A stretch of DNA of 64,000 nucleotides, taken from positions 5,330,001-5,394,000 of the forward strand of contig JAPXFQ010001662.1 of assembly GCA_028564705.1 (NCBI GenBank). Reading direction: 5' to 3'. Origin of the DNA: Apricaphanius iberus (Eukaryota; Chordata; Actinopteri; Cyprinodontiformes; Aphaniidae). Shown one piece after another: positions 2,517-64,000 of the stretch. Below the pieces are notes generated by a model. It made no database searches and had not been told where the DNA came from. It saw only the letters and a program-made list of their open reading frames with translations. Positions within the stretch are counted from its first letter, which is position 1; each line of letters begins with the position of its first letter. Both the position numbers and the translations under genes were made by a program.

Positions 2517-5164
2517 GGGAAGGTGTGTTTTGATGAAGACCAACTTGAGCAGGTGTGTGAGTACCCTTCAGAGACCTTCATGCTGATGTCAAGCCCCCTC
2601 CCTTACGACCTTGAGAAAAAAGAGAAGGAGGCCCATAAGGATGATGGTGCAGGTGAGGGGGCAGCAGTTGTATTGAAAAGCATGAAGAGCAGAGGGACTG
2701 CAACTGGACCTCGCCTGAAAGTCGGTCAGTGTCAACCCCGTCTCAGAAGACATAAAGTGTAATAAATGTTTTCAGTATGTCTTACAGATGTCCACATGGC
2801 CATGAGAAATCTCCAGGGTTTGACTTCATTCTGTTAAAAAAAAGATGTTTAGTCAAGTTTTTTCTCCTGTGGAAGCTGCAGTTGGTATCATGAAGTAGAA
2901 AACACATGGGGAAAAACAGTAAACAAACATGTATACAGGTATATATCCTCACCTCTAATATACTGACTACTTTTGCAATCCAAAAGTTGGGGGTTTGACT
3001 CCAGCATGTCACAAGTTGATTTACCCTGGGGAAAGGACTTAACCACATCTTGCCTACCAGTCTACATGTCTGTGTTTTAACATGTGAGAGGTTGTGAGTG
3101 TATTTCATTGAGCGTGGCTCTAGTTTGAAGTACTTTCAGTAGTTAGTATGAAAAGAAAAGTACAATATAAATACAGTTCATTTACCATATACACATTACT
3201 GAAATATGCTGCTTTATTATTAATATTTTTAGGTTTGGCATACGTTTTTTCCCCCCCAGTTTTTTTGTCTTTTTTTTTTACTCTGCAATCACAGCCGTAT
3301 TAGATATTTAACAAATTGTATAAAACTCCTTTTTTTTATTAACTGTACGATTTGCTCCTGGAGGTAGCACCAGTTGTTTGTACAAATATTTGGACTCTGA
3401 ATGGTGTTTATTATTATTACTATTATTTAACTTTGTATTTCTAAACTGTTGTGGTCAAACAACATTTCAGGTATTCAAACTGTGTGCTAGCATAATAGGG
3501 ATTATACCCTGTCATGTGAGTCCCTGCCACTGCTTGAATAAGACATAATCTATAAGAAGGGAAAATTAATAGTTTTGTGCAACTTCCACCAAGTTTTATT
3601 GATGTGGAAGGGATATTTTTTATTTAAGTAATCTTAAGGTGAGGAGACCTCTGACTTCCAAAATTGATATTTGATAGCATAGGGTGTTTATGTTGATTTT
3701 TCCAGCTTGGAACTCCAACATTTCTATTTCCTATTACATATTTCTTAAAATGAATGCGACAGCTTATTTTGGTCTCAAAACCTTTTTTTTAATATACTGT
3801 TTATTCCTAATAGTATTTATCTGCCTATAAGGTGATTTGTTTGATTATTAAAAGCATTTAAATTGGTGGAAATTAAACTCTAGCAAGTTGTTTGTTAGCA
3901 TACTAATAGGCTTTGCTAACACATTAGTCTGGAACAATGAATTGAAATATCTCAAAATCTTTTTTAATGCTGCTTATTTCCCCTATGTAATTTCAGGATC
4001 TGTTCAAGTTTGTTATGTATTCACTGGGAGTATTTTAAAGTGTCTCTCTAAGTTATCAAAGTAGTTTTCTTTAGCATGCTATTTAATATTGCAGATATCA
4101 GTTAGTTAATGCTTCAAGAGGAATGCTGCTCTGTATATTTATTTTCAATGTTGTTTATTAGCGCGATGCCTTTAAGAACGTTCACATTATTTATTTAAAG
4201 CATATAAAGCAAAAAATATATTACAGTATGACAGAGTTAGCCTTTCTTAAGCATAGTTAACATTCAAGTTTGCTTCAGATCTAAGGGGGATGTTTTAGCT
4301 TTAAAAGGTTTGAACCTGTCTTTGATTTATTTTGAATGTCTACAGTATATTAATCCAGTTTGGATTTGTTTAGATAATTTTGAAGTGATTCAAAAAATCT
4401 TCCCAAATTACAACATTAGACTACCTTTGACATACTATTAATATTATGGAGATAAAATAAATAAATAAAACCCCTGAAAGGCCCAAACAAGGTTTTAAAA
4501 TCTCTTTTCTACAGTTGATTTAGCCTACATCTTAGTTAACACAATGTATGTTCTTATTAATTACATTTAATGTAAGTAAAAAAAGAAATGACTCAAGTTA
4601 ATTCTCATTTAGCATGGTCTTTAGCATTGTAGTGAACTTTTTGCTAAAGCTTTAAGAGTACCTCTGCTCGCAGCATTTTTTTAAACTCATTTTGTTATGC
4701 ACATGCATGTACTGGATTTTATGACTTTTAGTCTAACTAGTAAAAGTTTATCCCCATATGATCAATTGAGTCTTCCTTTAGCATGCTAGTTAGCTTCAAA
4801 ATTAGGAGTATTGTAACCATTTACATCATTACCTTGCTAAAGGTTTTTGTGCTGATATTTTAATCTCTAGTTTTAAAGCAGAACATATAGATGAATAAGA
4901 ACTGGTCTTCTTAGAAAATAAGGTACAATTGCAAATAAATATGTAAATAAAAGGTGATCAATGTGGGCAAGCTCATTATAAAGAAGAAGAGTAAAACTAT
5001 ATAGAAATTATGGAAATTCTGTCTTTTGCAAAGCCACAATTGGTCATTTTAATGAATGCTAATTAAATTTAAAATTTACTTGTATTCAAAAATCCAATAT
5101 CTATTAAATATTCACTTTAATTTCCTTTCATCTCTGTCTTCCAGATGAGTCTTGCCCTCGGTAG
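2517..5164 (+). CDS. Last two coding exons of an unrecognised gene (partial)
   Basis: Two exons are seen: 2517-2724 and 5145-5164 (ending in TAG at 5162-5164). The first follows TTGCAG and ends before GTCAGT. One base carries over so that the last exon reads Asp-Glu-Ser-Cys-Pro-Arg-stop. The visible C-terminus, about 75 residues, is hydrophilic and charged. It has an acidic start (FDEDQLEQV), a YPSE tetrapeptide, and a Lys/Glu-rich then basic tail. No membrane segment or enzyme motif is visible. The YPSE-containing segment vaguely recalls the C-terminal part of the taperin/phostensin (PP1-binding) family, but this is a weak impression and no name is assigned. Upstream exons lie outside the window. 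The reading frame runs on past 2724 to a stop near 2762, so an unspliced or alternatively spliced end is also possible. Confidence 0.5.
2725..5144 (+). other. Intron with SINE-like insertion and recurrent AGCATG text
   Basis: This is the intron between the two exons of the first gene, AT-rich with no coding evidence. A SINE-like repeat is at about 2950-3190. From about 3480 to 4850 short motifs related to TTTAGCATGCTA recur at roughly 3487, 3894, 4073, 4610 and 4777, as if a unit had been duplicated and diverged. Confidence 0.45.
2950..3190 (+). repeat. SINE-like dispersed repeat
   Basis: A B-box-like GGGTTTGACTCC (2991-3002) is followed by text that recurs widely in fish genomes. It ends with a tail reading TATAAATACAGTTCATTTACC. 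The order (tRNA-like promoter half, body, conserved 3' tail) fits a tRNA-derived SINE. The A box is degenerate and no target duplication was found, so the limits are approximate. Confidence 0.45.
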
Positions 5165-9970: not shown

Positions 9971-12900
9971 ATGATTTTCAAGAATATTCACCCGAGAACT
10001 TGCAGAGCATGGCTGTCTCTGGTAGGTCTTTTGTTTTGTGGAGTTGTTTTCATGCCGTTTCTGTTGACCTTCCTCTAGCCTCAGTGACAAATGGACACTC
10101 GTCGGCTATTTCTAACAGCACCACAGCTGGTGAGCAAATAGGAAGTAGCGGATCTTGTTTCCAAATTTCCTGCTTGTGATCCGCTCCGTGGACGCGGTTT
10201 GCGTTTGGTCAAACTCCGGTGGCAGACAGTCAGGCGTACAGTGAACAGATAAACACACTCTGCTCCTCTTTGTGCAGGTTTCTCCGAGGCAGGAACCGTG
10301 TTTCTACTCCACGGTGCCCCCCCAGCCGGTGCCCCCGCTGACCCAGACCCTGCAGGGCTATCTGAGGGCCCTGGAGCCCCTGCTGCCCCCGGAGGAGCTC
10401 AGCCACACCCGCAGGACGGTGCAGGAGTTCGGGAGGCCCGGAGGGCTGGGACAGCGGCTGCAGGAGGGGCTGGAGAGGAGAGCCAGGCACACCAAGAACT
10501 GGGTGTGTGAAGCAGACACATGTGAAAGCTGGTTATGGGCGGATGCATCGTTGCTATTGGTTAAAAATTAAACCTAAAGTCCAGGATGACTGGAAAACAC
10601 AGAAAGCGGGTCTCTGAAGTTACTGAATGAATCAGACAGAAGTGTCATAGCAGGGAAGCTACAATAACGGACAAATGCTCACAAAAATCAAAAAAGTGCA
10701 ACTACATTCATCTGGTAATGATAATAGACCATGCCATCTTATATTAACCATGTTCCAGTTTCATACTGGGAATATTTGCCTAATTCCCCCTAATCTATAC
10801 TGGAATGATGAGTGATTTGGTATTGCAAAAAAAAAAACAAATATTTAGGAGAAAATGTACTGCCTGTAAAATGATATGTCAAATGATAGCTAAATAAATC
10901 TCAGGTTCATAAACAACTAGAAGTTTATTTTACAGTAAGTAAACACAATATTATTATAAATTACCTTAACCGTATAAAGTCGAATAAATCTTATTAATCG
11001 CACTTTTTACTTGTAACCATAATTTTTTATTATTAAGAAAAATGACAAAGTTTAGGAAGGACATACTGAATTTAAAATAAATGGAAATTTTTCAAATAAT
11101 TGAAAGTTTTTATCAAAATGTCAATATTTAAGGGGTACTTTGTCATTTCAAATATTATGAGGTTTAATGAAAAAGGAAACTGTTCAAATTAGATGGTAAT
11201 ATAAACGTAGATTATAAAAAATGGTTTAGATGTATTTATAAATGCAGCTGTTTGAATTGAAACATAGCTGAATTAACTATGAATGAATAATAAGTTTAAA
11301 GATTTTAATCCAGAGAAATTATCTAAAGAAATGTATGCATGTGAAATGAATCATTTTATCTTTTTTTTTTTTCATCCAACTCATTTTGTATTTTGCAGAT
11401 AAACTAATTTAAACTAAAATTTACATTTTATTCAAACATTAAATTATGGTTCCCTGCCTCTCGCCAATGACTTGATGGATGGATGTTAAATTTAGTAAGT
11501 ACTACTGATACAATATGTATACATTAAATGTATTTAAAATACTTTTATACATTAATAACTTAATTTATGTAACGGTTATGCTACATAAAAATGTAGATGT
11601 TTTATATTGGTACTGAAAATGCAATACTTGTGTACAAAATTCATAAAACTTTGGAAAAATCTTAAGAAAATAAATATTAGAAGAAGAAAAAAAATGACTA
11701 AATTATTAAGGAAGCAGTGAATAATATCATATAGATAATATTATCTCTATGTTTGTGGAGGGGCCTAGCCTCTTTGGGTCCCGGCTTGATCTTGAATTTC
11801 CTCACTTAACTCTTGGTCGAACTCTTGGTCGTCCTTCCAGATCTCAGACTGGTGGGTGCAGTGGGCGTACCTGGAGAGCAGGCAGCCTCTTGCGGTGCAC
11901 TCCAACCCGGCCATCTCGCTGCCCCGCAGGGATTATAATGACTGGAGGAGCCAGCTGCTGTGAGTCCTGATGGTGACACTTTTCCTACCGTTAGACACAT
12001 AATCAGCAGCGACAAACATGCCTGAAAAAGCTGTTTACTTGTCTGGTTAAGACTTCCTTATCTGTGTTGAATAGAGCAGTGGTAGTCAAGTCGTTGGGTC
12101 TTGTTTTCTTCTGCAGAAGGGTCAGATAATAGAGGCGTCACTTATCAGGAGAGGATGCATTCTGGCTGATAACTATTAAACATGAGAGGAATGTGGACAG
12201 AAATGTACTGAACAGGCAGTTTTTCCCTAAACAGACTATTTTATCTCAGAGGTGAGGTCACAGGGGTACCGCTGCCTTCATTAAATGTTCAATAATCCTG
12301 TTTCTTTTTCGCAGATTTGCATCAAAATTGATCGCAGCAGTTCTGGACTTCAGAGCCAAAATGAACAGGTGAGTTTTATGTTATAATAACTCAGTAGGAA
12401 CACATGGAAGTCATCCTTCTTCCTCTTTTCAGGAGCTGCAGGTATCATTTTGCAACCTTGTTGTTGTCTGTCTTCTTGAGTTTCATCCAGCTGGCGTCGC
12501 CGTGTGTTCGGCTGCCATATGAAGTTAATCTGTGGCTAAATTTACTTGGACTGACAGTAAGAGTATCTGCAGCTCAGTACAGGGACCTGATCTGAAACCT
12601 TAATGGATTATAGGATATGAACATGCTGTTAACCTCCTGATGTATGTTAGTTTTAGTCATTTATTCACGGATATAGGTTTTCCATTTTAGTTTATCAGTA
12701 ATTTTTGCCATTTCTCTGATTTATTCAATGTTTATTAGCTCACTGCTAGGACTGGTTACAATATTTTAAACTCTAAATTAAAAGTTTCTAATATGTTGAA
12801 TACCTCATGCCTTTGAGCTCAAGATCCAGTGGTGATTTCCATCAACAGAGAGGTCTATCATTATAATTACCATTATTTGAAATCATTCAAATTTTCCTGT

Positions 12901-15900: not shown

Positions 15901-18900
15901 AGCGTTTGTTTGCAGTAGCAACATCGCAAGTTTTGATTTTTGTAGCAAATTAAATTGAATATTTTGTGGAGCTGTAATTTAAAATAAAAAGTACAGGGCC
16001 CAGTACTCATCCCTGTGTGTCGCCTTTACTAAAACTTTAAAGAGAAACTTCTTGAAAGACAAAAACTAAACATACATCATGCTTCCATTTTTAGCTTTTT
16101 TGCATTTATTCTGTTGCCAAAAGATTACAGGTATGTATAAAATATATAGTTTGACTAATGGCCACTTGGCTTTAGTTTACTTTGTGTGTTGCTACTCTAA
16201 GAATATTTGCTAACGTGGCAGTAGCTAAGTGAACTCTACTCAACAGTTTTAATGATGATGAATGAAGGACACATCTTCAAAGCGTAATGGGTTGTTCTAT
16301 CTACGTCTTTCTCCCATAGTGGTGGTTTTATTGTAAAACAATGGGAGTTATACCAGTTGCATGTGTTTGCCTCTTTCTCAGTGGGCAGCTGCCAGTCGAG
16401 TACATGCGGGGGAAACCTCTGTGCATGGAGCTGTACCCGCTCCTCTTCTCCTCCTGCAGGATTCCCGGACCCAAACACGACTACGTCTCTCACCACGGCA
16501 ACTCCCGACGCTCGCCAACACACATCACTGTGGTCAGGAACTACCAGGTGGGAGGCGTCTCCACCTTTGACTCGGCATCGGTTTTCAGCCACAGTGCTGA
16601 TGTCATGTTTTCTTTTCATTGCTTTTGCCTCACTCCTGAAAAGGTAGTTTTCGTGTTTTTATCACAGATTTGTGTGAGTTTTGGTTTTAAGTATACAGTA
16701 CAGACCAGTATTTTGGACACACCTTCTCATTCAGTGCTTTTTTTTTTTTTTTCATGACTATTTACATTGTAGATTCTCGCTGAAGGCATCAAACTATGAT
16801 TGAACACATATGAAATTATGTAGTACTGTTTCAAAAGAAGTGTGAAATAACCTGGCCTCCAAAGTCACCGGACCTGAACCCAATCGAGATGATTTGGGGT
16901 GAGCTGAACCGCAGAGTGAAGGCAAAAGGGCCAACAAGTACTAAGCATCTCTGGGAACTCCTTCAAGACTGTTGGAAAACTATTTTGGGTGAGAATGCAA
17001 AGCAGTAATGAGAGCAAAGGGTGGCTACTTTGAGGAATCTAAAATATAACACATGTATTCAGTTATTCCACCCTTTTGTTTAAATACAAACAGTAATTTG
17101 ATGCATCATGTGTTCATTCATAGTTTCGATGCCCTTAATTGAGAATCTACAATGTAGTTATTAAAATAAAGAAAATGCATTGAATGAGAATGTGTGTCCA
17201 AACTTTTTGTCTGTACTGTATGCCTGGAAAAATCTACCTGATTATCCAAAGATATGTGACCTAGAGGGGTAAGAATGTGTTTCTTCAGTTTCAGGAGTTC
17301 AGCTGTCTCACCAGCAGTTTATTGACCTCTCTGACTACGAAGGGTTCATCCACTATAGACACTCTTAGACACCAGGGGATTCTTTTGGTGGTTAAAATAA
17401 ATCAGACTGAACCAAGGTCGGGTTGAAGTCCTGACTCCCCAAGTGAAGTATTCCTAACCAGAAGGTGCAGAGAATTGGGTCCAGCTAAACATTTTTAGTC
17501 TTTTGGCTGGCCTTTACAGCGAGTGCTTCACTGTCCAAAAAATCTTTGCCAATTTGGCTTTAGTTAAAAAACCACTGTATGTCTATCAGCTGTGGTAAAC
17601 CAAATTTAGGACACATTCTTTTGCTATCTTTGTGGAGCTACAATGGTCATCTGTCAAACCTACCACCAAGGTCAGAGTTGATGGGGTATGAATTTTGAAC
17701 GGAACTGAAGCCAGGTTATCAGAGGAGTCTAATGTCTGTCTGTATTCTTCGTTCCAGATCCAGCTTTGATCTGTGTTTGTGGTCATAATAATCTTTCAAA
17801 ACACATTTGTATCCAAGTTTAAACAATCTGTCAGAAATCATCACCCTCAGGTGGAACAAATGTTGTTATGATGTTCAGGAACATTTTAGGAACCATTCCA
17901 AATTGAGTTGCTTTCCAGAGGGAAGGAAGTCTAATATCAGCCAGTTTGTACTAAACTAGTTTCAGGGAAAATCCACGGGCTCGGTGTCAGCCATTGTCTC
18001 CATACAGAGTGGGCTCTTTAAGGAATTAGGCAAGGTAATTTTATTTGTACAGTACACTTTCAACACAGGGCAATTCAAGGTGCTTTACATATGATTAGAA
18101 TAGAAATGAGCAGTTACAATAAGAAAATAATCAAGAAAATACAACAATGTAGGGACAAGTGAGTAAAAAACAGGTTTAGTTCATTAACTGATCTTGCTGA
18201 AGAAAGCTTACAGGTTTTAACATAAAGCATTTACAGTAATTAAGACAATAATTCGTGTGACAATTAAAAACAAGCAAGTAAAAACAATTACTCATAAGCG
18301 AGTCTAAATAGGTACGTTTTAATTTTAGATTTAAAAGAGTTCAGTGTCTCTGCAGCTTTGCATTCTCCCGGTAGTTTTTTTCAGATATGAGGAGCATAGA
18401 AACTAAAAGCTGCTTCTCCGTGTTTGGTTCTGGTTCTAGGGATGATCAGTAAACTTAGCGAAGAAGTCCAAATATTGAGACAATTTCAGCAGTCAGTGAA
18501 GTCACTGATCAGCACCAAAAGACGCCCACAGCAGCGGAGAATAATAAAAGGTCGACAGTGGAAGGAGGAGGGTTTGTTGCCGCTTTTCTTTGCTATGTTC
18601 AGCAACTCTACCGATTTCACAAAGCCGGTTGTTTGATGACGTCTGCTGATGTCACTTCCCACTGACTTAAAGGAATACTTTACCGCTGGAAAGATGAATG
18701 TGTATGTAAAGTGGGTCAGATGTGCAGTAGAAATTTGAAATTGTTTTTGAATTTGGAGTATTCTAGACTGAGAAAAGCCAGAAAATGTATTTTTTACTCA
18801 TGTGGCTGAAATACAACAACTCCCAGAATGCACTTTCTTTGCTGCCCTGAGGCCATTCAGAAACCACGCCTACAGGCTTGCTTTCACAATTTCTCTAACC

Positions 18901-21900
18901 TGAAACATTCTTTAGGTTAACATATACTCTAAAATAGCAACACTAAAGGTTTATAACAAACAAAACAAATGTGATTTTTAACGTTTATTTAAAAAGTAAA
19001 TAAAATAAATTTTTTAACACTCAAAGCTCTTCAATAGCTACGGCAGTTTCCTGATATCCACAGTATTGACCGTCATGAGCGGGGTATCTTCGTCTAATGA
19101 CCAAAACAACATAGGTAGGCAAAACTAGACGACAGCCTTTGCCAAGTCTCTCGCCTTGCAGGACCCACTCCATAAAGTGACGGGAGGCTTTTAGACTGTA
19201 TTGTCTGCAAAACAGTAAGCTCAACGTTAGCAATGCAAACTATTTCCACCTACAGAATGCTAGAATTATGTTAATGTAACAACAATAGCTCAGCTGACTT
19301 CGTGGGGAGAACGCTATGATAATGCCGGGTGTACAAACTCAGTACATGACGTCTTAGTAACAAAAAGAAAAACAAACAAAATACTAACTTTACACTGACC
19401 CGTCCGTTTGGACTATATTTCGAAAATACTGCTGGTTTTCTACTGATACAAAGCTTAATGCTAAATGCTGAAGTATCCCTTTAAAGTCAGTCATCACTAG
19501 TCCTGCCCTACGAGTCTGTCGGGCCACTTTTGAGTACACACTCCAAGGCAGGTACTCATTTGGTTCCTGAAATGGCCCAGAAGGTTAGTGGTCAGTTCTG
19601 TCCGGTAAAATTACCCCCGAAATTTCGATAGTGGAGAAGATGAAAGAACATGGAATGGAATGAACATGGAAGAGTACCACCAACACAATGGACCCTGCTC
19701 TGGAGAAATGTTGTTTGCGCTCAGTCGAGGCTCAGATTGAAATATTTGAGTCATGGTGAGGCTTTTAAAGCAAAGAACAGTGAAACAGTTGTCATGCATG
19801 GGGCTGGCAGCAGCAGTCTGTAGGACTGTTTCTCTGATAGTGGTTCAGTTTGCGTTCCTCATGGGGAGGAATGACTTATAATTCAATTTTATCTCAAATC
19901 GGACCCTAATGGCTCAAAAACTGAGCAGAGCTGGACGTTTAGTTATACAGAGCACCCAGTTCTGATCTGAAGTGAGGTCAAAGACCAAGCTACAATTAAG
20001 CAGGAAGATCGTTAATAGCAACAAAAAGTTTGTGGTTTAGAGTGCAAATATGCTTAAGGGACTTTTACCCAAATACTGCGGTAAAGTTAATAGATATTTT
20101 AGCCTGTATGAATGATTTTCACCATAAGAAAAGGGGATTTCTTTAATAAATTACTTTTTCTCAAAAAAACACTAATTGTTCAAAAGTTGCATAATCATTC
20201 CAGGCTGGAAATACCTGTTAAAATTAATTGTAGAAAGCCACAAATGAATGTCTTGCAAGTTCTGACTGGAGCTATATCTCCATCTTCTCCCAGTTCTTCC
20301 AGCTGGAGGTTTACAACAGTGATGGATCGCGGATGACCGAGAGTCAGATTCACAGTCAGCTGCACAGAATCAGGTCTCAGTCCTGGAAAACCGACAAGGA
20401 GCCCATGGGCATCCTGACCAGCGAGCACCGCCACACGTGGGGGGAAGCGTACAACCGCCTGCTGAGAGGTTCGATTAAACATCATCACATGGACGCTTCC
20501 CAAAAAGTTTACTCAGGAGGCTGCTGCTGCGTTAAAGCAGAAACTAGTTTCATCTCAATGCAAATCATGATGATTATTAAACATTCAGGTAGAATAAATG
20601 TAAAAAGCTCTTAATTTTTTCTGATTTTTTCTTTCTCTTCTTTTAGACAAACTCAACCAGGAGTCGGTGCGGATGATAGAAACAGGACTTTTCTCACTCT
20701 GCTTGGATTCTCCTGTCATGAGGATATCTGATGAGAAGTATGTGCACAAACACACATTCTCGGGTGTTTCTGTGTTTGCTGAATCTATTGCCTAATCTCT
20801 CTGCAGATATGATTGTGCCGTGTGTTGACGTTTGCCTCAGGGAGCAATTGTCTTTTTCCTGTATTTGAACTGAAACTACAGATTGTGAAATGCTGAGCTT
20901 CTTGTGTCACAATCGAAAACCGCGTTCAGAAATTGCTTTCTTTTTGTCTTTTTTTTTTTTTGTCTTGTGTTTTCATTGTTTTGTCTTGCAGGTACGCCAG
21001 TCGCAAGGCAGCTCAGATTCTGCATGGAGGCGGGACGTACTCCAACAGCGGCAACCGTTGGTTTGACAAAACACTGCAGGTGGGTGCGAGCGCAGTCTAA
21101 TAGAGCAGCTTTGGAGACGCTGATTGAGCGTTGGCAGTAGGCTGACTCTGTACTGTGTTTGTTTGAACAGTTTGTTGTAGGCGAGGACGGCTCATGGGGC
21201 CTCCTGTACGAACAGGCCACAGCTGAGGGCCCGCCCATAACAAACCTGCTGCACCATATACTGGAATACTGGTGAGATTAAACTTTCAACATCCTGCAAA
21301 CTACTACTGCCGCTGCTACCACCACAGCTTCTGCTGTTTAGCTGGTAGTAGGATTGTTGGACAACGTTGAACCTAATAAAATGGCTTTATACATTGAAGA
21401 GCAACAAAAATAATCTGGTCTGCCTTTAAAGGGGACGTATACTCCAGTAAGCTTGTAGAACCACCTCAAACAGTAAAATTTATACATGTATTTTCTGACT
21501 TATTCCAGGATCTTACTTTGGTCTTTATTTTATTGTTTATTTAATATAATTATTATTTATTTCTGTAGATTTCTTTTGAAATTTTACTACAGAGCTTAAA
21601 TCAATTTAAGGTCTGGGATTTGATTGGCCCGTTGCAACACCTTGAGAAGGTTTAGTTTTATGATCCAGGAAGTTGCCTTCAAGTTTGGATCAAGACCAGC
21701 GGTTTACAACTCCGGTCGTCGAGTACAGCTGTTTGTTCACCTTTGTATGGATAACTGCTCAAAACACCTGAATAAAAAGGTTAAAGTAACCCTTCATTTA
21801 ATTGAAGTGTGTTGGAGCAGAGATGAATCCAAAAGAATCCTGCTCCAGAACGTTTGCTACACATGGCTGGCTTGGAGACCTAAGAGTATCCAGGACTTTT

Positions 21901-24900
21901 GTTGCATAACGGGCCCAAATTGTCAACCCTCCACCACTGTGCCCTTAGAATGAGCTTGATATGCTGTGTTTGATTTTCTGCAATTATTGCAATGGGAATT
22001 ATGGTCAAATATCGTTATTTTGCTGTTTTTTGGAGAAGTTTTGGTAGTAATTCACACTACACTTTTCCGATGCCGGTCATTTTGACTGACTGGGTCAAAA
22101 AATTCTGATCTCAATTTAACATAAAATAAAACTTAAAATAAAGTAAATATTCAACATAAACAAGCTGAACAAAGAATCCACGTATTTTCTCCCACTTCAA
22201 GCACCTGGTGTGACCTGAACGCAGTCTTACAACTTCCTGGTCCGCATGAATGAAAACTTTTTTCATATGTAGCACCCGTGCGACAGCTTTGCAAGCTGCA
22301 ATTTTTAGGTTTTTTGTACTGTAAGATACCTCAGCGACCGTTGTATCTCAACGATACATAGTGGCTGGCTGTAGTTACTACGTACAGTCATGTGACTTCA
22401 ACCCATTTGGTCTATAACAAGGAGGGAACAGTGCTGCCAACTAGAGATTCTTTCCCCCCCAAAAAAGTGAACAGCGAGAAATCTAGCAACTTTTTATGGT
22501 GTTATTGGAGACCCTATGGAAACTGATGTCAAGCACGCATCATTGTTACTGTTCTCACCAAGCAGCGATGCTGCTATGGGCCCAGAGAGCTAACAGCATC
22601 CAGCTCCACCCGCCTCTAAGCCCTGTTAACCCGCTGAGTCCAGAATGCTGATAAAACGCGTACGCTTGAAGCCACCGCTAGCTGATGTGAATGCAAAAAA
22701 AAGAAGAAAACAATCTGTCTTAAATAAACGACTGCACACTAAATAAATCAGTCACTTCACCTTATCTGTGTTGTTGACTCTCTCTGTGATGGACGTTAAA
22801 CAGTCTCTGTCTAAAGTGGAGTTGTCTTAGGCCAGGACTGGCAGAAGTCCTGCTTTATAGAGTCAGTCATAAAAAAGATCAATTTATTAAGTGTTCTTTG
22901 GCTTTCTTTTTGTTTTATAAATGATTATGTGAAATATATTTGCATTTGAGGCCTGCATAATCCTAGAATTCCAAGAGAGGTTTGCTGTCTTTTTACCATG
23001 ACTGTAAAACAGAGCAGATCATGACACAACAAGGCAAGGCAATTTTATTTATATAGCACACTTTCAACACAAGGCATTTCAAGGTGCTTTGCATGGGTCA
23101 GTGGTAATGCAACCAAGTACATGATGAAAATTAAAACAGATCAAAGCATAAAAAATACATTTAATTAGAGAGTATGAAATGTAACCAAAGTAAGCCTTTC
23201 CTGGAAGTTTATATCATCAAGCCGCATTGATCCGTCTCACAGGATCGTAGAAACAGAGCCTCTGGGATGCTTGTTTGTTTATTAGCACTTAATCTGAACT
23301 GAAACACCAAACACGTTACACACAGAGCCAGATAAACAATTGGAGGGATAACTGTATTTTAACCTGAAGCCCTTCTGAAATCTGTCAGTTTGAGTTTCCT
23401 ATTGGTTTGATTCATTGGTGTTTTGAAGAACCTATTAAGAAATGCTTTACGGTCAAAATCTTTATGCTTATCCCAACTTTGAGGTTTACTTTACTCTGGA
23501 TCGGTTTGGAAAAATAAATCTGGAGAAATGTTTGTACTTCCGTAACTAATTTCTTTTATTACTTTACATTAATTTCTCTGTGCAGCCATTCCTCCATCTA
23601 ACCGCTCTTTTATATTCATCCATTCATATGTACTTCCATCTAACCGTCCATCCGTTAATTAATCTGTTCATCTGTCCAACCTTGTGTCTATTTGTTCATC
23701 CATCCATGCAGGCAGATTTCCACACATTTGCAGATCTAACTTAGTTTCCTCCCAGTGGAGAAATAGAATTGTTGTCATTAACGTTAGAAAATAGCATCCA
23801 AACGGCTTTTAACTTATTATTTTTGTTGTTGTTTATGTTCGCAGTGAGAAACCCGACCCAAAGAGAGCTCCACTTGTTCCTCTCCCGATGCCCAAGAAGC
23901 TCTACTTCCACATTGACCGAGACATCAAGAGGGACATAGAGCAGGCCAAGCAGAACTTGGACATGTGAGCCTTGTGTAAATGTTCTGTCCTGATTTAGAT
24001 GAGGTTGAGCTTCAGCTCTGGCCTCCTGCTAGATGTTTGCTCTTCTGAAACATGGAGAGGAAAACCACAGTAGTTAAAGCAAATGGATCTTCTCTCCGTT
24101 TATGAAATTCATTTTCCCAACAGTGTGTTCCTGACCACAGACTAAACACTGAGGCTCCATACTGGCCTGCATAATTTTAGAACGTTCATAAATCATTCAT
24201 CGTCTCACATTGAGGCGATTTCATGTGGGCTCGTGTAAACTGTGCAAAAATATTGTTTGTTACAACCCGCACACAAGTATGGAGAATTTAATACCTCCCC
24301 ATGAACGTTGTTCTGGACTGACCACAAAAGCCAGGAAACTACGGTTTATTCCTCTGTCTAATAATACCATCAGCAGGCGCATTTATGGCATGAACATAGG
24401 AGCACCATCATGATGAACTATGGCTGCTGTTTTGTGAGAATCCGCACAGCATTGTACGCCATTTTAAACAAACGATGTCAAAAAAATCCTCTCATTATAC
24501 ATTTTTATCTGTCAATTTTTAAAATGATAGACGCATTCAAGGGAATTTTAATTTTCATTCATTTTAATTAGGCCTAATGTTTAGTCCCAACAAGCTCATC
24601 AGAGATTCTACATTGTGTCATCAAACATCCAGCAGATAATTACATGGGTTACATATTCACATTTCACCTGCTGGTCGTTTTTCAAAATAAAACATCGTCT
24701 ACACTCTGATAATAAAGAAAGGAAATGCTGATAAATTAAAGGTACAGCGGAGGATTTTCAATGAATTTCAGGATGGAACCACCTTCTCCACTTTTAGAAG
24801 AAATCTTTCCATGAAAGTGGCCATATAGACGTAGATAACTTAGTCTAGCAATAATCTGAAATTCATTTCTACAAATAACAAGGCAAATTTACTGCGGTGA

Positions 24901-27900
24901 AGTTAGTTGGATATTCAACACACTAGAGGCCGACCGATATGTTGTTGTTTTTTAAGGCCGATACCAATTTATTTTTAATCTGGATGCCGATGGCCGATAT
25001 CAAAAGCCGATTATTAACACTGCTTTCCAAGGCTGATATATATACTTTTTAGCAGCACATTGATTGTGAAATTGTTTATAAATATAAAACAACATAAAAA
25101 CAAACTAAAAATAGTAACTTGAGTACAAATGGTTTCAGAAAATAGGAAGATGAACCAGATTCAAGTTTCGTTATACAAAATAAAATAAATGTAAACGGTA
25201 ACCAGAATAATGATGCGAATAGCTGGCTGATGTAGAATCTTGACTTCAAGTATTAAAGAAAAATCACCACAGAGTAAAGGACCACTGCCACATGATAGTA
25301 AATGATCAAATCTAAAATATAGATAAAAAATAGTGCTTACGGTGGTTCGGAGTGTGTGAGGGTCCTTCTTTCAGTCAAGTAGTGGCTGCAGCTGCCCACA
25401 CAGGTGGCTATTATTTGTGTGTGACTTTTTTTTCTTAAAATTTCGGCCGATTGTCGATATAGAGAAAATTGAATATATCGGTCGGCCTCTACAAACACAT
25501 TAATTTCATTAAAACGGAGAATCCCTCCAACGTCTCACCGAGAGCTGTGCTCATGGAGCGGATACATCACTGCCGAAGGCTCGCTCCTGAAGGTGGTGCA
25601 TTTGGTTAGGGACCATCGTTAAATTTCTATCCATCACAGAAAAGAAATAAATACGTTTGTGATCTCTTGGCGAAGTAATCCCAAAGTTAAGCCTACCTGC
25701 CAAGTAGAGACCTGGCGATGGAGGAATCAGTGCAGAGCCCAACCTATGCTACAGCACACACCATTGTTGGAATCCTGCTCTGGCACACTGTATATATCTT
25801 TCTCCTCTGGTTCCGTATAAACAGATTAAATGAAATCTTGTCAGATTATTAAAAGTTTATAAAAGATGACTGTATAAGTTTTGGTTAAATTAAAAGGGCC
25901 TATCCTTCACGTCTCTTTCAGACTGATCAACGACCTCGACGTCCACGTATTCAACTTCAAAAAGTTTGGCAAAGAGCTTCCCAAGGAGAACAACATGAGT
26001 CCTAACTCTTTCATTCAGGTTGCTGTGCAGCTCTCCTATTACAGGTCAGTACCGGGACGGCCACATAAATGCAAGTATTTTCCATAAATGAACGCTCCGG
26101 GTTTTTCAGTGCAGTAAAACTGAAAATAAGATTCCATCGCACTACCGCTACTTTAGAGGGATGCTCTGCCTTCTCGTAGGAGAAGAGGAATCTCTAGGTG
26201 GCCAAGTAAAGCTTGTTTTTGTTTGGTACCATTTTATGCCCATTCCTCACTCATGCAGCTGGGCAACACATACATTTTCATGTAGAAAAGCTGGTTAAAC
26301 TATTGTCTCAAATGCAGCACAACGTGACGTTTAAAGCAAGCTGCTGCATCATTGCTCTGTGGCAAAAAGGTTTTACTTTGGAGAGGGCTAATTAAAATCT
26401 GGCTTTTTTTTTGTGGGGTGGGGACAAATTTAACATTTCATTTAGCAAAAATGCAGGTTAGACCAACATTTTTACACTTTGGGTCCAAAAAACATTATCG
26501 TAGTGTTTTCAAACTTCCGATACTCACATTTGCTGCTGCTGATACAAACGTTAAACCTGATATTATATGGCGGGAGCAGTAAGACCAAACAGATCCTCAG
26601 TTTTTCTGCAGATTAGCCGTATAACCACTTGAGGGAGCCAAAAAGGTTAGAAGAGCTCTGAGCTGCAGTGCCAGTGCATGAATTTTACTTTCTGGACTGA
26701 AATCAGCCTTATTTTTTCATGAGAATTACACTTGTTTCAGGACTCTACAACATATTTGAACTTTATAATCTTTTCCTGCAGAGTTCACAACGAGGTCTGT
26801 CCTTCCTGCGATATCGCCTCTCAAAGGATGTTTCGCGGAGGACGGACAGAGTACATCCGCTCGCCGACAAATCAGACGCTCAAGTTCATCCTGGCCTTCG
26901 ACGATCAGAGAGTGTCGGTGAGAAACGGCTCGGTTTGACTCGTCCGCGTCTTTCTGACGTGATCCTGTTTTGATTTGATGTTTTTCTCCACAGAGAGAAG
27001 CAAAGCTGGAGCTGCTCAGAGAAGCAGTGGATGCTTATGCAGAGCTGACTACACAGGTAATTACCTCAAGAAGCTGAGTACTCCAGCTTGTTTACTGGAC
27101 TGCACTGTCAGATGTTGATCTTTTCTTTGTGGTGCTGCCTAGGCTCTAAATGGACGCGGCATCGACCTCCACCTGCTGGGGCTGAAGCTGCAGGCCATCG
27201 AGGAAGGTCTCAGCATTCCCAAACTCTTCATGGATACAGCTTACGGCCTGGCGACGCACTGGAAGCTGCGGACAGGACAGGTCTGTTCACTCCCAGTTGG
27301 AGGATTAGGAAAGAAAATGAGTGTTCTAAATTTTAAGATTTCTAATTATAACATTTTCATTTTACTTTTCATTTTACAATGTTCCTTTCTCTTTTTATTT
27401 CGGGAAAATCCAGCTTTCATGTTGTTTTAAAATGAAGATCATATGATCAGTGTCATATTTTGTCTGTAATAATCATGCAGCATGTGACTTTAGATGTTTT
27501 TATTTTTGTTTTTTAATGACCATGAAGTTACATTTATTGCCAGAACACATTTACAGTGTTGTTAAATTATCCTGTTTTCCATCGTTATCTGTCACTTTGG
27601 TATTTTTACTTTTTTTTAAAAAAGGAACTACAGCTGTATCTCAGTGAATTACAATAACTTACATTCATTTCAAAATGTTAAGTTATATCACTTCATTGCA
27701 CACAGAGTGGTATGTTTCAACTATTATTATTATTAGGGATGCAATCATACAACATTTTTCAAACCAATGCGATACCGATACATGGATCTGAGTACAAATG
27801 GCGATACTTTTATCAAACAAAAAAAACTATTTGGAAGTAATTTTCTTCTCTGCTTGTTACAACATATGATGGTGAATTAGATGAACAATAAAATAAAAAT

Positions 27901-29313
27901 AACCACAAAACAAAAACTCCAAGCAAATTTTTTATTTTTTTGTGTGAAAATATTGCAGTTTCCACATTTTAAGTATCAGTTCATGTCATCAATTAACTGA
28001 TACCAATACGAATACATGAGAACGGTTTCAGCCCCGATTCCCAATACCAGTATCTGTATTGGTGCATCCCTAATTTTTATTTATTGATGAATGTGGCTTA
28101 TTGGTTTAAGCAAGCAAAAATCCCTAGTACTGAAAATTCAAACTTTCTATAAAGATTTTTAGTTTTGAAATATTGGCCTACTTAAAAAAGATGTCCATGT
28201 ACTTTATCGTATATGCTTTCAATTTGGTCGCGGCTCCTTTTGCATAAATTGCACGAAGAAAGCACAGGTTTTTTTAATGGTGGTTTTGAAGTCATCTGAA
28301 TAACTGATGCGATCTTGACAATTCCCCATAGAGTCTCATAAGCGTCTCCATGAAGTTTGAAAGCAGAAGGTAGCATGAAGTGCTCTAATTTTTCCTGGTT
28401 GACCACTACTCTGACTTTTGAATTTGTTTAAACGCAGTGGACCAACAGAGGTTCAGACATGGAAGCTTCACATTAAACCTCAGTCGGCTTTCTTTACCTC
28501 TCCACGCTGCAATGTGCACTTATTCATGCTGTTTGTGCACATTTTTTCCCACCACAGTTTTTCTTTCCACTCAACTTTCCATTTATTTGCTTGAATTCAC
28601 TCTTCTGAACACCCAGCTTCTTTCTCTGTGTTAAAGGGATATTCCATCCCTATCTAAAAAGTTGTTTGTTGCCATATCAGGACTGCTGCCAGATCAGGGG
28701 AATTACTGGGCTGGCTTGAAAATGCTTTTTTCTCACTTATCTACCTCTAGGGAATATGGCAACAGACACACTTTTAATGAGGACTGGAATATCCCTTTAA
28801 AAATCATTTTTGTTATTATCTATAATTCAAAATTAAAATGAATTAATGCAGTCAATATATCGCTCTGTGTGAAATAGATCCATCAATAATGAGTTGAGCC
28901 AGTATTGTGCTGGCTAATTCAGTGTAAATATGGTCGGTTTATGTTTAATATGCACATTTTCTAGTTTAACTTTAATATTTAACATCTAATAGAGATTTGA
29001 AAAAATGTTTTAAGCGTATTTTTTTTTAAACTAATTTAAGCTGTCGCACCGATCTTAACATAAAGAATCGGCCTTCATCCTCATCATCTCGTTTTTTTTG
29101 CGCCTGCAGGTTCCCGCTAACACAGACAGCGTGATGTGTTTCGGGCCGCTCGTTCCCGACGGTTACGCCGTGTGCTACAACCCCCAGGCGGACCACGTCC
29201 ACTTCTCCGTCACCGCCTTCAACTGCTGCGAAGAGACCAACGCAGAGACAATGGCTCACACTTTGAAAGAAACCCTGTGCGACCTACAGGAGCTGCTGCA
29301 GCCTACTGTGTAG
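9971..29313 (+). CDS. Carnitine O-acetyltransferase-family protein, catalytic residues lost (likely pseudoenzyme)
   Basis: Fifteen coding exons join in frame: 9971-10021, 10278-10502, 11841-11959, 12315-12368, 16382-16547, 20294-20468, 20647-20737, 20992-21079, 21171-21271, 23845-23964, 25922-26044, 26782-26917, 26994-27056, 27143-27280, 29110-29313. This gives about 617 residues, against about 626 in human CRAT. The family swaps acetyl groups between CoA and carnitine in mitochondria and peroxisomes. CRAT identity shows in PVEYMRGKPLCM, GILTSEHR, SGNRWFDKTLQ, PLVPLPMPKKL, HLLGLKLQAIE and VPDGYAVCYNP. The Met of the short-chain acyl pocket is kept (M559). The basic N-terminus resembles a mitochondrial presequence, and no C-terminal peroxisomal AKL is present. 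By eye alignment, active-site His343 is Gln338, Tyr452 is Cys447, Arg518 is Leu513 and Ser552/Ser554 are Arg547/Gly549. Thr465 and CoA lysines 419/423 (K414/K418) remain. The intact frame argues for a functional non-enzyme rather than a pseudogene. Confidence 0.93.
10503..11840 (+). other. CRAT-family intron 2, AT-rich
   Basis: Begins GTGTGT and ends CCTTCCAG. Strongly AT-rich, with nothing recognised beyond short A runs. Confidence 0.5.
14914..14955. repeat. Perfect 20-bp inverted repeat, 2-base loop
   Basis: The arm AGGCATCACACAGAGATAAA (14914-14933) is followed by GT and then its exact reverse complement (14936-14955). All 20 base pairs match. The loop is far too short for a pre-miRNA. 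It could extrude as a cruciform, or be a young palindromic duplication. Confidence 0.85.
15540..15692. repeat. Palindromic MITE-like repeat, copy A
   Basis: The text reads as CTAAAACACCTGCTTCAG through to GCATCTAAAACATCCAG and GGTTGGGCACCACTGCTG. It is one half-diverged copy of a teleost palindromic repeat whose arms end in CAGTGGTGCCCAACCC-like sequence. A second copy lies near 56443-56605. The left end is worn. Confidence 0.5.
16696..17218. mobile_element. Internally deleted Tc1/mariner element with TA target duplication
   Basis: The left end starts CAGTACAGACCAGTATTTTG (16696 onwards). The right end finishes AAACTTTTTGTCTGTACTG (to 17218). Both are flanked by TA. The inverted ends continue through GGACACAC and TTCTCATTCA. 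Inside, a plus-strand stretch near 16853-16980 still spells the end of a Tc1 transposase: PPKSPDLNPIEMIWGEL, containing the third acidic residue of the DDE triad, then WELLQDCWKTI. The front of the transposase is missing, so the copy cannot encode its own enzyme. Confidence 0.85.
18028..18455. repeat. Dispersed teleost repeat, copy 1
   Basis: The start GGCAAGGTAATTTTATTTGT and the blocks ACACTTTCAACACAGGGCAA and CAAGGTGCTTTACAT match the start of the repeat at 23031. Later text (AAAAGAGTTCAGTGTCTCTGCAG, then AGCTGCTTCTCCGTGTTTGG) belongs to the same well-known fish repeat. Its class is not settled. Confidence 0.6.
18665..19487. mobile_element. MITE-like element with AAAGG(G)ATACTT ends
   Basis: The left end reads ACTTAAAGGAATACTTTACC. 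The right end, reverse-complemented, reads ACTTTAAAGGGATACTTCAG. The ends are inverted with a few mismatches. Nothing coding lies between, and no clean target duplication was found. Confidence 0.5.
21272..23844 (+). other. CRAT-family intron 9
   Basis: Begins GTGAGA and ends TTCGCAG. It contains the second copy of the dispersed repeat (23031-23170) and a degenerate CATC-type microsatellite at about 23585-23710. No coding exon is seen; the open frame at 21624-21953 has no homology or splice signals. Confidence 0.5.
23031..23170. repeat. Dispersed teleost repeat, copy 2
   Basis: GGCAAGGCAATTTTATTTAT, then ACACTTTCAACACAAGGCAT and CAAGGTGCTTTGCAT, match copy 1 at 18028 closely for about 70 bases. 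Confidence 0.6.
23965..25921 (+). other. CRAT-family intron 10 with a hAT-like element
   Basis: Begins GTGAGC and ends TCTTTCAG. The only structure recognised is the inverted-repeat element at 24924-25491, listed separately. Confidence 0.55.
24924..25491. mobile_element. Non-autonomous hAT-like element (GAGGCCGACCGATAT ends)
   Basis: The left end is TAGAGGCCGACCGATATG. The right end is ATATCGGTCGGCCTCTA, its inverse. The inner arms also mirror each other (GGCCGATATC against TTCGGCCGATTGTCGATAT). The flanks CAACACAC and CAAACACA could be an 8-bp duplication after a 1-base indel, as in hAT elements. No transposase is present. Confidence 0.7.
26045..26781 (+). other. CRAT-family intron 11
   Basis: Begins GTCAGT and ends TCCTGCAG. 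No repeat or gene recognised. Confidence 0.5.
27734..28072. mobile_element. hAT-like MITE with 8-bp target duplication
   Basis: Ends are TAGGGATGCAATC and GGTGCATCCCTA. The 8 bases before (ATTATTAT) and after (ATTTTTAT) match at seven of eight positions, as expected for hAT. The inner arms (GCGATACCGATAC against CCAATACCAGTATCTG) are loosely mirrored. 339 bp, non-coding. Confidence 0.8.
28310..28455 (-). pseudogene. Tc1/mariner transposase fragment
   Basis: The minus strand reads KLEHFMLPSA, then HGDA, then LWGIVK. These are blocks of a Tc1-like transposase that normally lie far apart; the middle, including the catalytic acids, is deleted. It seems related to the fragment at 57838-58180. Confidence 0.55.
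28631..28800. mobile_element. 170-bp MITE with perfect 16-bp inverted ends
   Basis: TTAAAGGGATATTCCA (28631-28646) is exactly inverted at 28785-28800 as TGGAATATCCCTTTAA. No coding content. The family, with AAAGGGATA ends, is common in fish and is distantly like 18665-19487. Confidence 0.8.
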
Positions 29314-33382: not shown

Positions 33383-33677
33383 GGAACAAACAAGAGGAGT
33401 TCAGTCGATGACCGGTCAAGTGTTTATGCAGCTGTTATAATACCCCGTTCTATTTGTCCAACGAACTCAGTGATCGAAGGGACAGTGTGTGTTATGTAGC
33501 ATATATGAAGGGAATCTTATCTAACGGGATGTTTATCTGTACCGCAGCTGGATACAACTTCAAAATGATACCTCAAAATTAGATAAACATCAGTATGTAT
33601 TATTTTAATTTCACCCAACTGGTTATTTTTTATGTGTAGGTGTTTATTTTAGAGGCTTTTAATACACCTGAGGTGCA

Positions 33678-36600
33678 ATGGAGGGTCCAACGTTTGCTAG
33701 AACGAGGAGGCGAGTCAGCGAAGCTGCCGGGCTGCTGTGCCCGCTGCTCGGTGCGTGCCTCTGGGCTGCGGTGGTCGGGTACAAGCCGGTGGTCATCGTG
33801 CACGGCTTGTTCGACAGTTCGGAAGATTTTAAGATCTTACAGCGGTTCATCAACGAGGTGAGAGGCTAAAGTGATAAGAAAGTAATACAATTACTCATTT
33901 ATTTTCAGAAAGTTATTTTGAATTTATTCTACAGGCCTCCATATGTGATTAAAAAGAAATGGAGCCTAGAGCGGTTTAAGTCCAGAATATACAGTTTAAG
34001 AAGTTATTACTCTATAAATATAAGTGTTATTCAATTTAAAATATGTAAAAGTGTTATAAACTTGTGAAATGCTTCTATTTATTCAGTATCAGAGCGTCAG
34101 TGCTGTAATTTGCATTTAAAAGCAGATTATTTAGGGGGAAAGTGACCCAACTAGTTAAGCATAGATTTCCAATAAATACAGCGGACTGTCAGTAGATTGA
34201 TAGATGTATTTCCTATATTCACTTATTTTTTTTTTTTTCCCCTAAATTATTTTTGCATATTCATTTCCCTTTCTCTCTTAATTTTGAATCTACTTTTGTT
34301 TCAATTTTCTAAAGACCATGGGAACTTTTTGTTACAGTAGCACAACAAAGAAAACATTTACAAAGTGTTAAACCATAATTAATATAACATATTAAAAGTG
34401 TAATTAATAGAGGAATAAATGAGTAAGAATAATTTTAAAATGGTAGTAAAAAATAAATAAATATACTTTCTAAGGCAGAGGGGTAATAGAAGAAACAAAC
34501 TAGTTGGAACAGTATGTGCAGGATGTCATGATTCAGGTAGGTCAATAATAATAATGTAAATGTAGTATCGGTTCAGAAAAGGAAGTTTTTCCGGTTTTTC
34601 ATCAAACCAAAATGGTTAGACAAACTTGAAGGTCCTCTTTTTCGTCTGTGTAGCTGCAGACCAAAACCAGACATATTTATAGATCAGAAAACAATCTAAA
34701 AATAAACTTTTTTCAGCTTAGTGGTTCCTCCTTTTCTGTTCTGCAGTCCCATCCTGGGACCAATGTGACGGTCATCGACCTGTTCGACAGAGGTGCCAGC
34801 CTCGAACCCATGTGGAAGCAGGTAGAGGGATTCAAGGCAGCAATTTACCCGATAATGCAAAACGCTGCAGATGGAGTTCATTTTATCTGCTACTCTCAAG
34901 GTGAGTGAGTACATTCCTGAAGGGCAGATAATACAAAGGAAAAAGCAGCACCATTGATCTTACAGAAACAGTTGACTATAAACTGTAAGTGACTCTCTCA
35001 GCGCTTATTGATGGATGCATTTTTTATGATGTTTTGGGATTTCTGCTCCAGTTTATCAGCTGGAAACTTCCAAAGAGCAGCTTTCAGTTCAAACCACTCC
35101 AGCAGAAATAAGAAGGCAAATTAGACCTTTAGACTTTTTGCAAATTTCTTTATCAGGTGTGTTCTCAGACATGCATATCTCGGAACAGGTACGCATAAAT
35201 GGGCCTTTTTTTCATTTCCTAAAAGTGTTTAGTTTTGACATTGAAATTTAAATTACTAAAATTAGATTTATTTTTGTTTCTCATTTTTACTTGTTTTTCT
35301 TATTATATTGTAATTATAAAAATGGTTTATTAATATGTATCCATGCCCCGCTGAATTAATGAAGTAAATCAACCAAAAGGAACTCTAACCAAGGATTAAC
35401 TGTACAGTATATGGACATACTTTTGAGCCAAGTGACATTTTTGAATTAAAAGTTTTTTTATGGGTCTTGTTTAATTTTTGCATTTACAGATAAACTGAAT
35501 TTTTGGTTATCATTTGCTTTGAGCCAAGCCAATCATCAGGATTCAAAACTAATTGCTTTAAATGTTGTGTGTAGGATGTGTGTTTTGAAGGGGACTTACT
35601 GAAATGAATTACTTTTTTAAAATGATATTCACATTTATATAAAAGCATCTGTATTCAGATTTATTAAACTAAATTTATGATCTCACGAAGCCACCACTGA
35701 GTATTGATCTTAGTTGTTTTATTGCCCAGAGAGCTAATATATAAAATAAAAGAAAGAAAAATTGCATGTTTCATGTAAGTATTTATTATGTAGCCGAAGC
35801 ATTATTAAATTACTTATTCCTCGCAAACCTCTAATATTGTTGTTTTAAAAGTTTAAAATCCTCCACTGAACTCCGTCACTTCCTGAACATGAACTCCATA
35901 AAAGCTTCTTTCTTTCTTGTTACTTCAGGCGGACTCGTTTGTAGAGGGATCCTCTCCACTTTGCCTAACCACAACGTCCACTCGTTCATCTCTCTCTCGG
36001 CGCCTCAGGCTGGGCAATATGGGGGTCTGTCCAACTTGAATCTAGAAATTATAACTACAGGTGTCACATAATTATTATTATGGCTTGTTTCTGATGATTA
36101 TAACTTGTGTTTCTTATCTCCTCTCAGACACAGACTACTTAAAGTATCTCTTCCCTCAGTTTGTGAAGTCAAACCTCTACCACCTCTGTTACACTGCTGT
36201 CGGTCAGAGGGTTTCCATCTGCAACTACTGGAACGGTAAGCCTTCAGACAGGATCTCCTCCTGGTGGACTTTCTGATTTAGACCTTAACGTATCTTGTTT
36301 TCTTCCTTCTGTCCGCAGACCCCCACCACAGAGACCTGTATGTAAACAGCAGCGAGTACCTGGCTTTAATTAATAGCGAGAGACCAAATCCAAATTCAAC
36401 AGGTCAGGAAAGGCTCGGCTGTGTGCTACTTTGTTGTATTTATCTTGTCATTTTGCCACTTATCAGCTACCATCCTCTGTGTATTTTACTGTGTTTTAAT
36501 CAGCTAAAATATGTGCTTTATTGTAAAATGGAAAGAAAATTATTTTTCATCACCTTTAAATTCACTACACTCAAGTAAAACATGCAGCTGCAAAATAGAT

Positions 36601-49093: not shown

Positions 49094-55528
<6,435 letters not shown>

Positions 55529-57453: not shown

Positions 57454-64000
<6,547 letters not shown>

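Follow-up and report, generated by a model that had tools for sequence, protein, structure and literature searches.

A cratb gene of Apricaphanius iberus without the catalytic histidine of carnitine acetyltransferases: a putative retained pseudoenzyme of teleosts

The window, a 64,000-nucleotide stretch of Apricaphanius iberus DNA, holds a complete gene on its plus strand (9971-29313; Table 1). The spliced model comprises 15 exons encoding 617 residues (coding length 1854 bases, no internal stop), and all 14 introns are of the GT-AG type, in agreement with a sequence-only reading that had described 15 open exons with good splice sites. The Pfam domain Carn_acyltransf (PF00755) spans residues 34-604 (profile positions 2-574 of 574, E 4.4e-183). 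Three proteins compared with NCBIfam matched none of its families. The gene is cratb, the first among the best 120 of 1220 matches being carnitine O-acetyltransferase b of Cyprinodon tularosa at 95% identity. The protein ends in LLQPTV, lacks a peroxisomal PTS1 and is presumably mitochondrial. A 114-base query from exon 9 finds a single place in the 1.195-Gb assembly. The intron between exons 7 and 8 (20738-20991) is missing from the modelled crata, third CRAT and one CHAT of the same genome; it represents a gain or else repeated loss elsewhere.

Table 1. Features of the window, with the residues of cratb set against their CRAT equivalents
Feature	Positions	Strand	Basis or remark
Phostensin-like exon (ppp1r18)	2508..2759	+	Pfam Phostensin E 1.8e-4, under curated cut-off
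cratb exon 1	9971..10021	+	Spliced model; ATG; basic N-terminus, mitochondrial-type by eye
cratb exon 2	10278..10502	+	GT-AG model
cratb exon 3	11841..11959	+	GT-AG model
cratb exon 4	12315..12368	+	GT-AG model
cratb exon 5	16382..16547	+	GT-AG model
cratb exon 6	20294..20468	+	GT-AG model
cratb exon 7	20647..20737	+	GT-AG model; fused to exon 8 in modelled own crata, third CRAT and one CHAT
cratb exon 8	20992..21079	+	GT-AG model
cratb exon 9	21171..21271	+	Catalytic segment YEQATAEGPP; single assembly place
Codon 338, CAG = Gln at catalytic His343 position	21213..21215	+	Protein alignment and codon reading
cratb exon 10	23845..23964	+	GT-AG model
cratb exon 11	25922..26044	+	GT-AG model
K414 (25971-25973) and K418 (25983-25985), the kept CoA-binding Lys419 and Lys423	25971..25985	+	143/143 listed cratb
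N425 replacing Asp430	26004..26006	+	Codon reading
cratb exon 12	26782..26917	+	GT-AG model
C447-D448-I449 replacing Tyr452-Glu453-Ser454	26807..26815	+	Codon reading
cratb exon 13	26994..27056	+	GT-AG model
cratb exon 14	27143..27280	+	GT-AG model
L513 replacing Arg518	27167..27169	+	118/143 other listed cratb keep Arg
R547-T548-G549 replacing Ser552-Thr553-Ser554	27269..27277	+	RTG in 143/143 listed cratb
cratb exon 15	29110..29313	+	Carries the stop; C-terminus LLQPTV
ppt2-like, outermost recognised exons	33672..42554	+	Last exon Palm_thioest E 1.7e-4, under curated cut-off; first exon by eye, no Pfam match
rps5 exons	50361..51003	+	Pfam Ribosomal_S7 E 6.6e-9; PDB ribosomal protein S5 matches
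ddah exon	63426..63743	-	Pfam ADI E 4.9e-4, under curated cut-off

Besides the neighbours tabulated, a Ly6-type exon (under the curated Pfam cut-off) and a CLIC gene, with CLIC1 as its best PDB match, lie around cratb, and more ddah coding sequence follows just beyond the window (L018:2-358), matching DDAH1 in the PDB at E 1.6e-21. Identities are firm by PDB match for the ddah sequence beyond the window, CLIC and rps5. A 410-codon open frame at 36579-37808 encodes a reverse transcriptase domain (RVT_1, E 1.1e-25) and is LINE-like, and a similar-looking frame was seen by eye in a further segment (L028).

Codon 338 of cratb specifies Gln where CRAT has its catalytic His343, as the sequence-only reading had claimed. 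In a phmmer search of the PDB, 409 of the C-terminal 412 residues align without gaps to mouse CrAT (1t7q, E 5e-155; 1ndb, E 9e-155), placing Gln338 opposite the His of YEHAAAEGPP. Orthologues were gathered from the best 120 of 1220 matches to the window protein and the best 120 of 1169 matches to Denticeps cratb, giving 143 distinct proteins, isoforms and contig-derived records included. Position 338 is occupied by Gln in 123, His in 14, Pro in 3 and Ala in 2, with a gap in 1; a non-His residue is found in 128/143. Whether teleost orthologues share the Gln had been left for checking, and they do so for the most part, the 14 with His excepted. Gln338 is common to Scleropages, Megalops and Anguilla through the killifishes, and on this sampling it is old but not universal among cratb proteins. 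It reads as neither an error nor a private mutation: a sequencing or gene-model error was rejected because orthologues share the Gln and the exon sits at one place in the assembly.

The His-bearing proteins comprise 10 records of named Cypriniformes (which we take to belong to that order by name), 2 further contig records, Paramormyrops and Mola; zebrafish is not among the names in the cratb matches listed. The Mola case was judged a faulty gene model, as CRNIH precedes ATAEGPP in place of WGLLYE-Q, and a CAG looks as if it had been taken for a splice acceptor. A record of Epinephelus coioides entitled 'catalase' in fact represents a cratb protein with Pro at the catalytic position, the name being probably a mix-up over the abbreviation CAT.

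That His is universal in active relatives, another claim of the initial reading, agrees with the ordinary CRATs, where His343, Tyr452, Arg518, Ser554 and Asp430 are each present in 119/119 other listed proteins, and with the crata, third CRAT and two CHATs of the same genome, which all have His. The 119 sequences (tetrapods, non-teleost fishes and teleosts) come from the best 120 of 2154 matches, the remaining one being a known cratb; the query was a consensus bearing the usual active-site residues and favours such sequences, so that exceptions lower among the 2154 matches are possible.

The initial reading saw one altered residue, and further catalytic and carnitine-pocket positions are changed too. 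Crystal-structure work has assigned carnitine-pocket or oxyanion roles to Tyr452, Thr465, Arg518 and the Ser-Thr-Ser (STS) motif; two inhibitor papers searched for these residue names contain none of them. In the available text of PMC11852590, His343 is the general base, Lys419 and Lys423 contact the 3′-phosphate of CoA, and Asp430 and Glu453 form a hydrogen-bonded pair, mutation of either of which can lower activity. The Asp430 position holds Asn in 133, His in 9 and Ser in 1 of the 143 listed cratb proteins, the Glu453 position Asp in 138/144 (window included) and the Tyr452 position Cys in 138/141 without a gap there. Thr465 is kept in the window as Thr460, and the two threonines alone are kept of the carnitine-pocket and STS positions named. 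Glu347 persists in 141/142 listed proteins without a gap there. The protein thus belongs to the family PF00755; of the marks of a catalytic CRAT, the two CoA 3′-phosphate lysines are present, and His343, the Asp430-Glu453 pair and the carnitine pocket with the STS motif are missing. Since Asp430 and Glu453 also shape the pantetheine site, CoA binding by cratb may be weakened. Of 267 CRAT columns at least 98% fixed, 51 hold the CRAT residue in less than 20% of cratb proteins; His343, Asp430, Tyr452, Glu453 and Ser554, five of ten named catalytic or pocket columns, are among those 51 (Fisher p 0.025, for positions chosen after some had been seen).

Two His-bearing CRATs, crata and a third CRAT, are kept in the same genome, as modelled from the assembly with the intron phases of the window gene. 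The crata protein (G000:C590:21800-31200) ends in SKL, by eye a peroxisomal signal; the third CRAT (G000:C367) lacks one. The available text of PMC8919083 describes a PTS1 (AKL) in zebrafish Crata and none in zebrafish Cratb. The His of the two CHAT genes was read in the translated exon; the assembly has further family members, the state of this residue having been read in the two CRATs and two CHATs. The third CRAT carries Tyr at the first STS serine (Ser552), where Tyr or Cys occurs in 5/119 listed CRATs. The crata of this species is fast-evolving, with 68-72% identity to eight teleost crata proteins that are themselves 79-92% alike, and an end branch of 0.51. Elsewhere in the assembly (G000:C1656:1294354-1296451), a pair of long Carn_acyltransf matches, separated by 0.36 kb and five stops and together spanning profile positions 2-492, may represent a processed family pseudogene.

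Judged at the protein level, cratb is nearly as conserved as ordinary CRATs and slightly less so than crata. At a level of 98% or above, 269 columns are conserved among 144 cratb proteins and 267 among 119 CRATs, a near-equality that flatters cratb, as the CRATs range from fishes to amniotes and the cratb proteins are all from teleosts. Pairwise identities were tabulated for hand-picked proteins (10 cratb, 8 crata and 3 of the third type) together with those of the window species. In 28 species pairs without the window species, cratb identity falls short of crata identity in 24, the gap reaching 7 points, matches it in 1 and exceeds it in 3; in pairs with the window species it is higher in 8/8 (76-82% for cratb vs 68-72% for crata against other teleosts). 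Compared with the third CRAT, cratb identity is higher in 5/6 species pairs and equal in 1/6. Residue loss within an otherwise conserved orthologous clade, together with purifying selection as seen at the protein level in samples of unlike composition, is the pattern of a pseudoenzyme. The earlier proposal of a kept pseudoenzyme and not a decaying gene is therefore the one favoured by the open frame, the shared non-His residues and a conservation near that of His-bearing CRATs.

The location of the gene bears on its origin. Phostensin, PPT2, DDAH2 and CLIC1 are, as we take it, genes of human 6p21.3, where RPS5 is presumably not found; CRAT, PTPA and IER5L are assumed to lie at human 9q34. In the accessible part of PMC1309616, 6p21.3 and 9q33-q34 are recognised paralogous regions and chromosome 19 of zebrafish carries ppt2 and a ddah gene; the part available of PMC12729821 assigns grass carp cratb to chromosome 19. 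The neighbours of cratb are mostly MHC class III-type genes. In the window species PTPA lies near crata and an IER gene near the third CRAT. With the human positions as assumed above and the paralogy as cited, cratb thus sits in an MHC-type block and the CRAT copies in a 9q34-type block, an arrangement that suggests an early-vertebrate origin of cratb by duplication of CRAT.

Phylogenetic trees group the cratb proteins together (support 99-100), with a long branch leading to them, and split the teleost CRATs in two, one group with the crata of the window species (95) and one with its third CRAT (86). The first tree used a hand-picked 28/143 cratb proteins plus the window protein, 30/119 CRATs, and the two CRATs and a CHAT of the same genome; rooting with this CHAT was rejected, its branch of 4.4 being too long to trust. 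The rows used for the AU test were the same minus the CHAT and the crata of the window species, the latter for its long branch. The free tree sets cratb and tetrapods apart from ray-finned CRATs (97), while a tree holding cratb with the teleost CRATs improves on it by 0.85 log units (AU p 0.547). An origin of cratb in the teleost duplication is not rejected by the tree, and sequence alone gives no date. Tetrapods appear to lack cratb, to judge solely from its absence among the tetrapod proteins in the matches listed.

Several observations point to expression of cratb. Sixteen cratb proteins (584-623 residues) are known only from contigs of source 'lgn' of 2.0-3.3 kb; these contigs are taken as transcripts, since the gene spans 19 kb with its introns. 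A tilapia 'CAT' cDNA whose expression was measured in liver carries, in the part of the report available, MSPNSFIQVALQLAYYR and QRMFRGGRTE (PMC11050330); its 461-codon ORF is not as long as that of the window cratb. The cDNA motif MSPNSFIQV...QRMFRGGRTE is of cratb type, with Asn at 430, vs MSPDAF or LSPDAF in ordinary CRATs, so such mRNA data, collected under fat and carnitine diets, may track a non-enzyme. Within the accessible text, a table in a hypoxia study (PMC12729821) gives cratb of grass carp as increased in liver, and a tilapia diet study lists crata/cratb, labelled cact, as regulated in both directions (PMC13303720). A literature search found no description of the residue loss in cratb, its coverage being mostly titles and abstract beginnings with subscription journals largely outside. 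Databases name the gene carnitine O-acetyltransferase b even though its product is probably doing something else.

The order of the losses was approached by equal-cost parsimony at position 338, on a tree built with that position masked from a hand-picked 58/143 cratb proteins, the window protein and 6 CRATs. The changes within cratb take 6 steps with a Gln root and 7 with a His root, rising to 9 if regain of His is barred. These counts do not settle the order of the changes, and regain of His in some cratb lineages is possible. RTG and Cys447 are found in all 14 His-bearing cratb proteins, with Asn or His at 425; change of the pocket may therefore have preceded release of the base.

Taken together, cratb is probably no longer a carnitine acetyltransferase. 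The account we consider the likeliest, with fair though far from full confidence, is that it is a retained and expressed mitochondrial pseudoenzyme, an early-vertebrate duplicate that still binds CoA or acyl-CoA and acts as a CPT1C-like sensor. Cratb would have arisen in the early vertebrate genome duplications as the MHC-paralogon partner of CRAT and been kept in teleosts. Loss of the general base, the Asp430-Glu453 pair, Tyr452 and both STS serines would abolish acetyl transfer to carnitine, and the kept 3′-phosphate lysines would preserve binding of CoA or acyl-CoA. The carnitine pocket would have been exchanged for another conserved surface with an invariant Arg547, and the catalytic position would then have drifted between Gln, Pro, Ala and His while RTG stayed fixed. 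Crata and the third CRAT would do the chemistry alongside, leaving cratb to sense or regulate the CoA/acyl-CoA pool without catalysis, in the manner of CPT1C. An AlphaFold model of the window protein plus 65 proteins was poor (mean pLDDT 59.7) and lent no support. A more detailed version, which we put forward only tentatively, holds that the MHC class III-block duplicate became a sensor of CoA esters whose new pocket, the invariant Arg547-Thr-Gly549, would accommodate an anionic ligand, and that the catalytic residue was lost later, with His perhaps regained without restoring an enzyme.

The pseudoenzyme reading has to be weighed against a somewhat unlikely alternative, in which cratb would still be an enzyme with a new acceptor or reaction. 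A pocket of Arg547, Gly549 and Cys447 would bind an anionic acceptor, and the chemistry would be independent of His or rely on Glu342, a lysine or substrate assistance. The invariance of the two CoA lysines and RTG, the near-invariance of Glu347 and the many other columns fixed to cratb-specific residues would suit such an enzyme. However, the base position is Gln, Pro, Ala or His depending on the fish, variation that suggests no catalytic demand there, and the Asp430-Glu453 pair has been replaced as well. Quite improbable is a lineage mosaic, in which the His-bearing Cratb of Cypriniformes and Paramormyrops would be catalytic and that of other fishes a pseudoenzyme: 13/14 of the His cases, all except Mola, are credible, but the His-bearing proteins without exception share RTG, Cys447 and the altered 425, which means a changed carnitine site in these fishes as well. 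Relaxation or decay of cratb, or a sequencing or gene-model error, has next to no standing, as the variability of residue 338 among percomorphs (Gln, Ala, Pro), the loss of Arg518 in the window with its variation elsewhere and a conservation slightly below crata in most pairs are outweighed by a Gln common to Scleropages and Anguilla through Cyprinodon, an intact frame with 14 intact introns, conservation near the CRAT level and a single assembly place. The natural Gln, Pro, Ala and His variants at 338 make the pseudoenzyme claim directly testable.

Among known systems, CRAT shares with cratb the PF00755 domain, the gapless C-terminal alignment, the CoA lysines and a similar exon structure; cratb differs in lacking His343, Asp430, Tyr452, Glu453 and Ser554, and in the window Arg518, and in having no PTS1, whereas the crata of the same genome ends in SKL. 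CHAT belongs to the same family and is the next PDB match after CRAT; its modelled copy in this genome keeps the His and the STS motif, neither of which cratb has. CPT1C, which we take to be a membrane protein of the CPT1 branch with its catalytic His kept, differs from Cratb, a member of the soluble CRAT branch that has lost this residue. The proposed likeness lies in function: according to the available text, CPT1C has no acyltransferase activity, binds malonyl-CoA and is a proposed malonyl-CoA sensor (PMC5934389). A paralogue kept without acyltransferase activity that binds a CoA ester may thus serve as a working model for Cratb. If this is true, cratb would stand beside CPT1C as a further carnitine acyltransferase pseudoenzyme, one without the catalytic His and found across teleosts.
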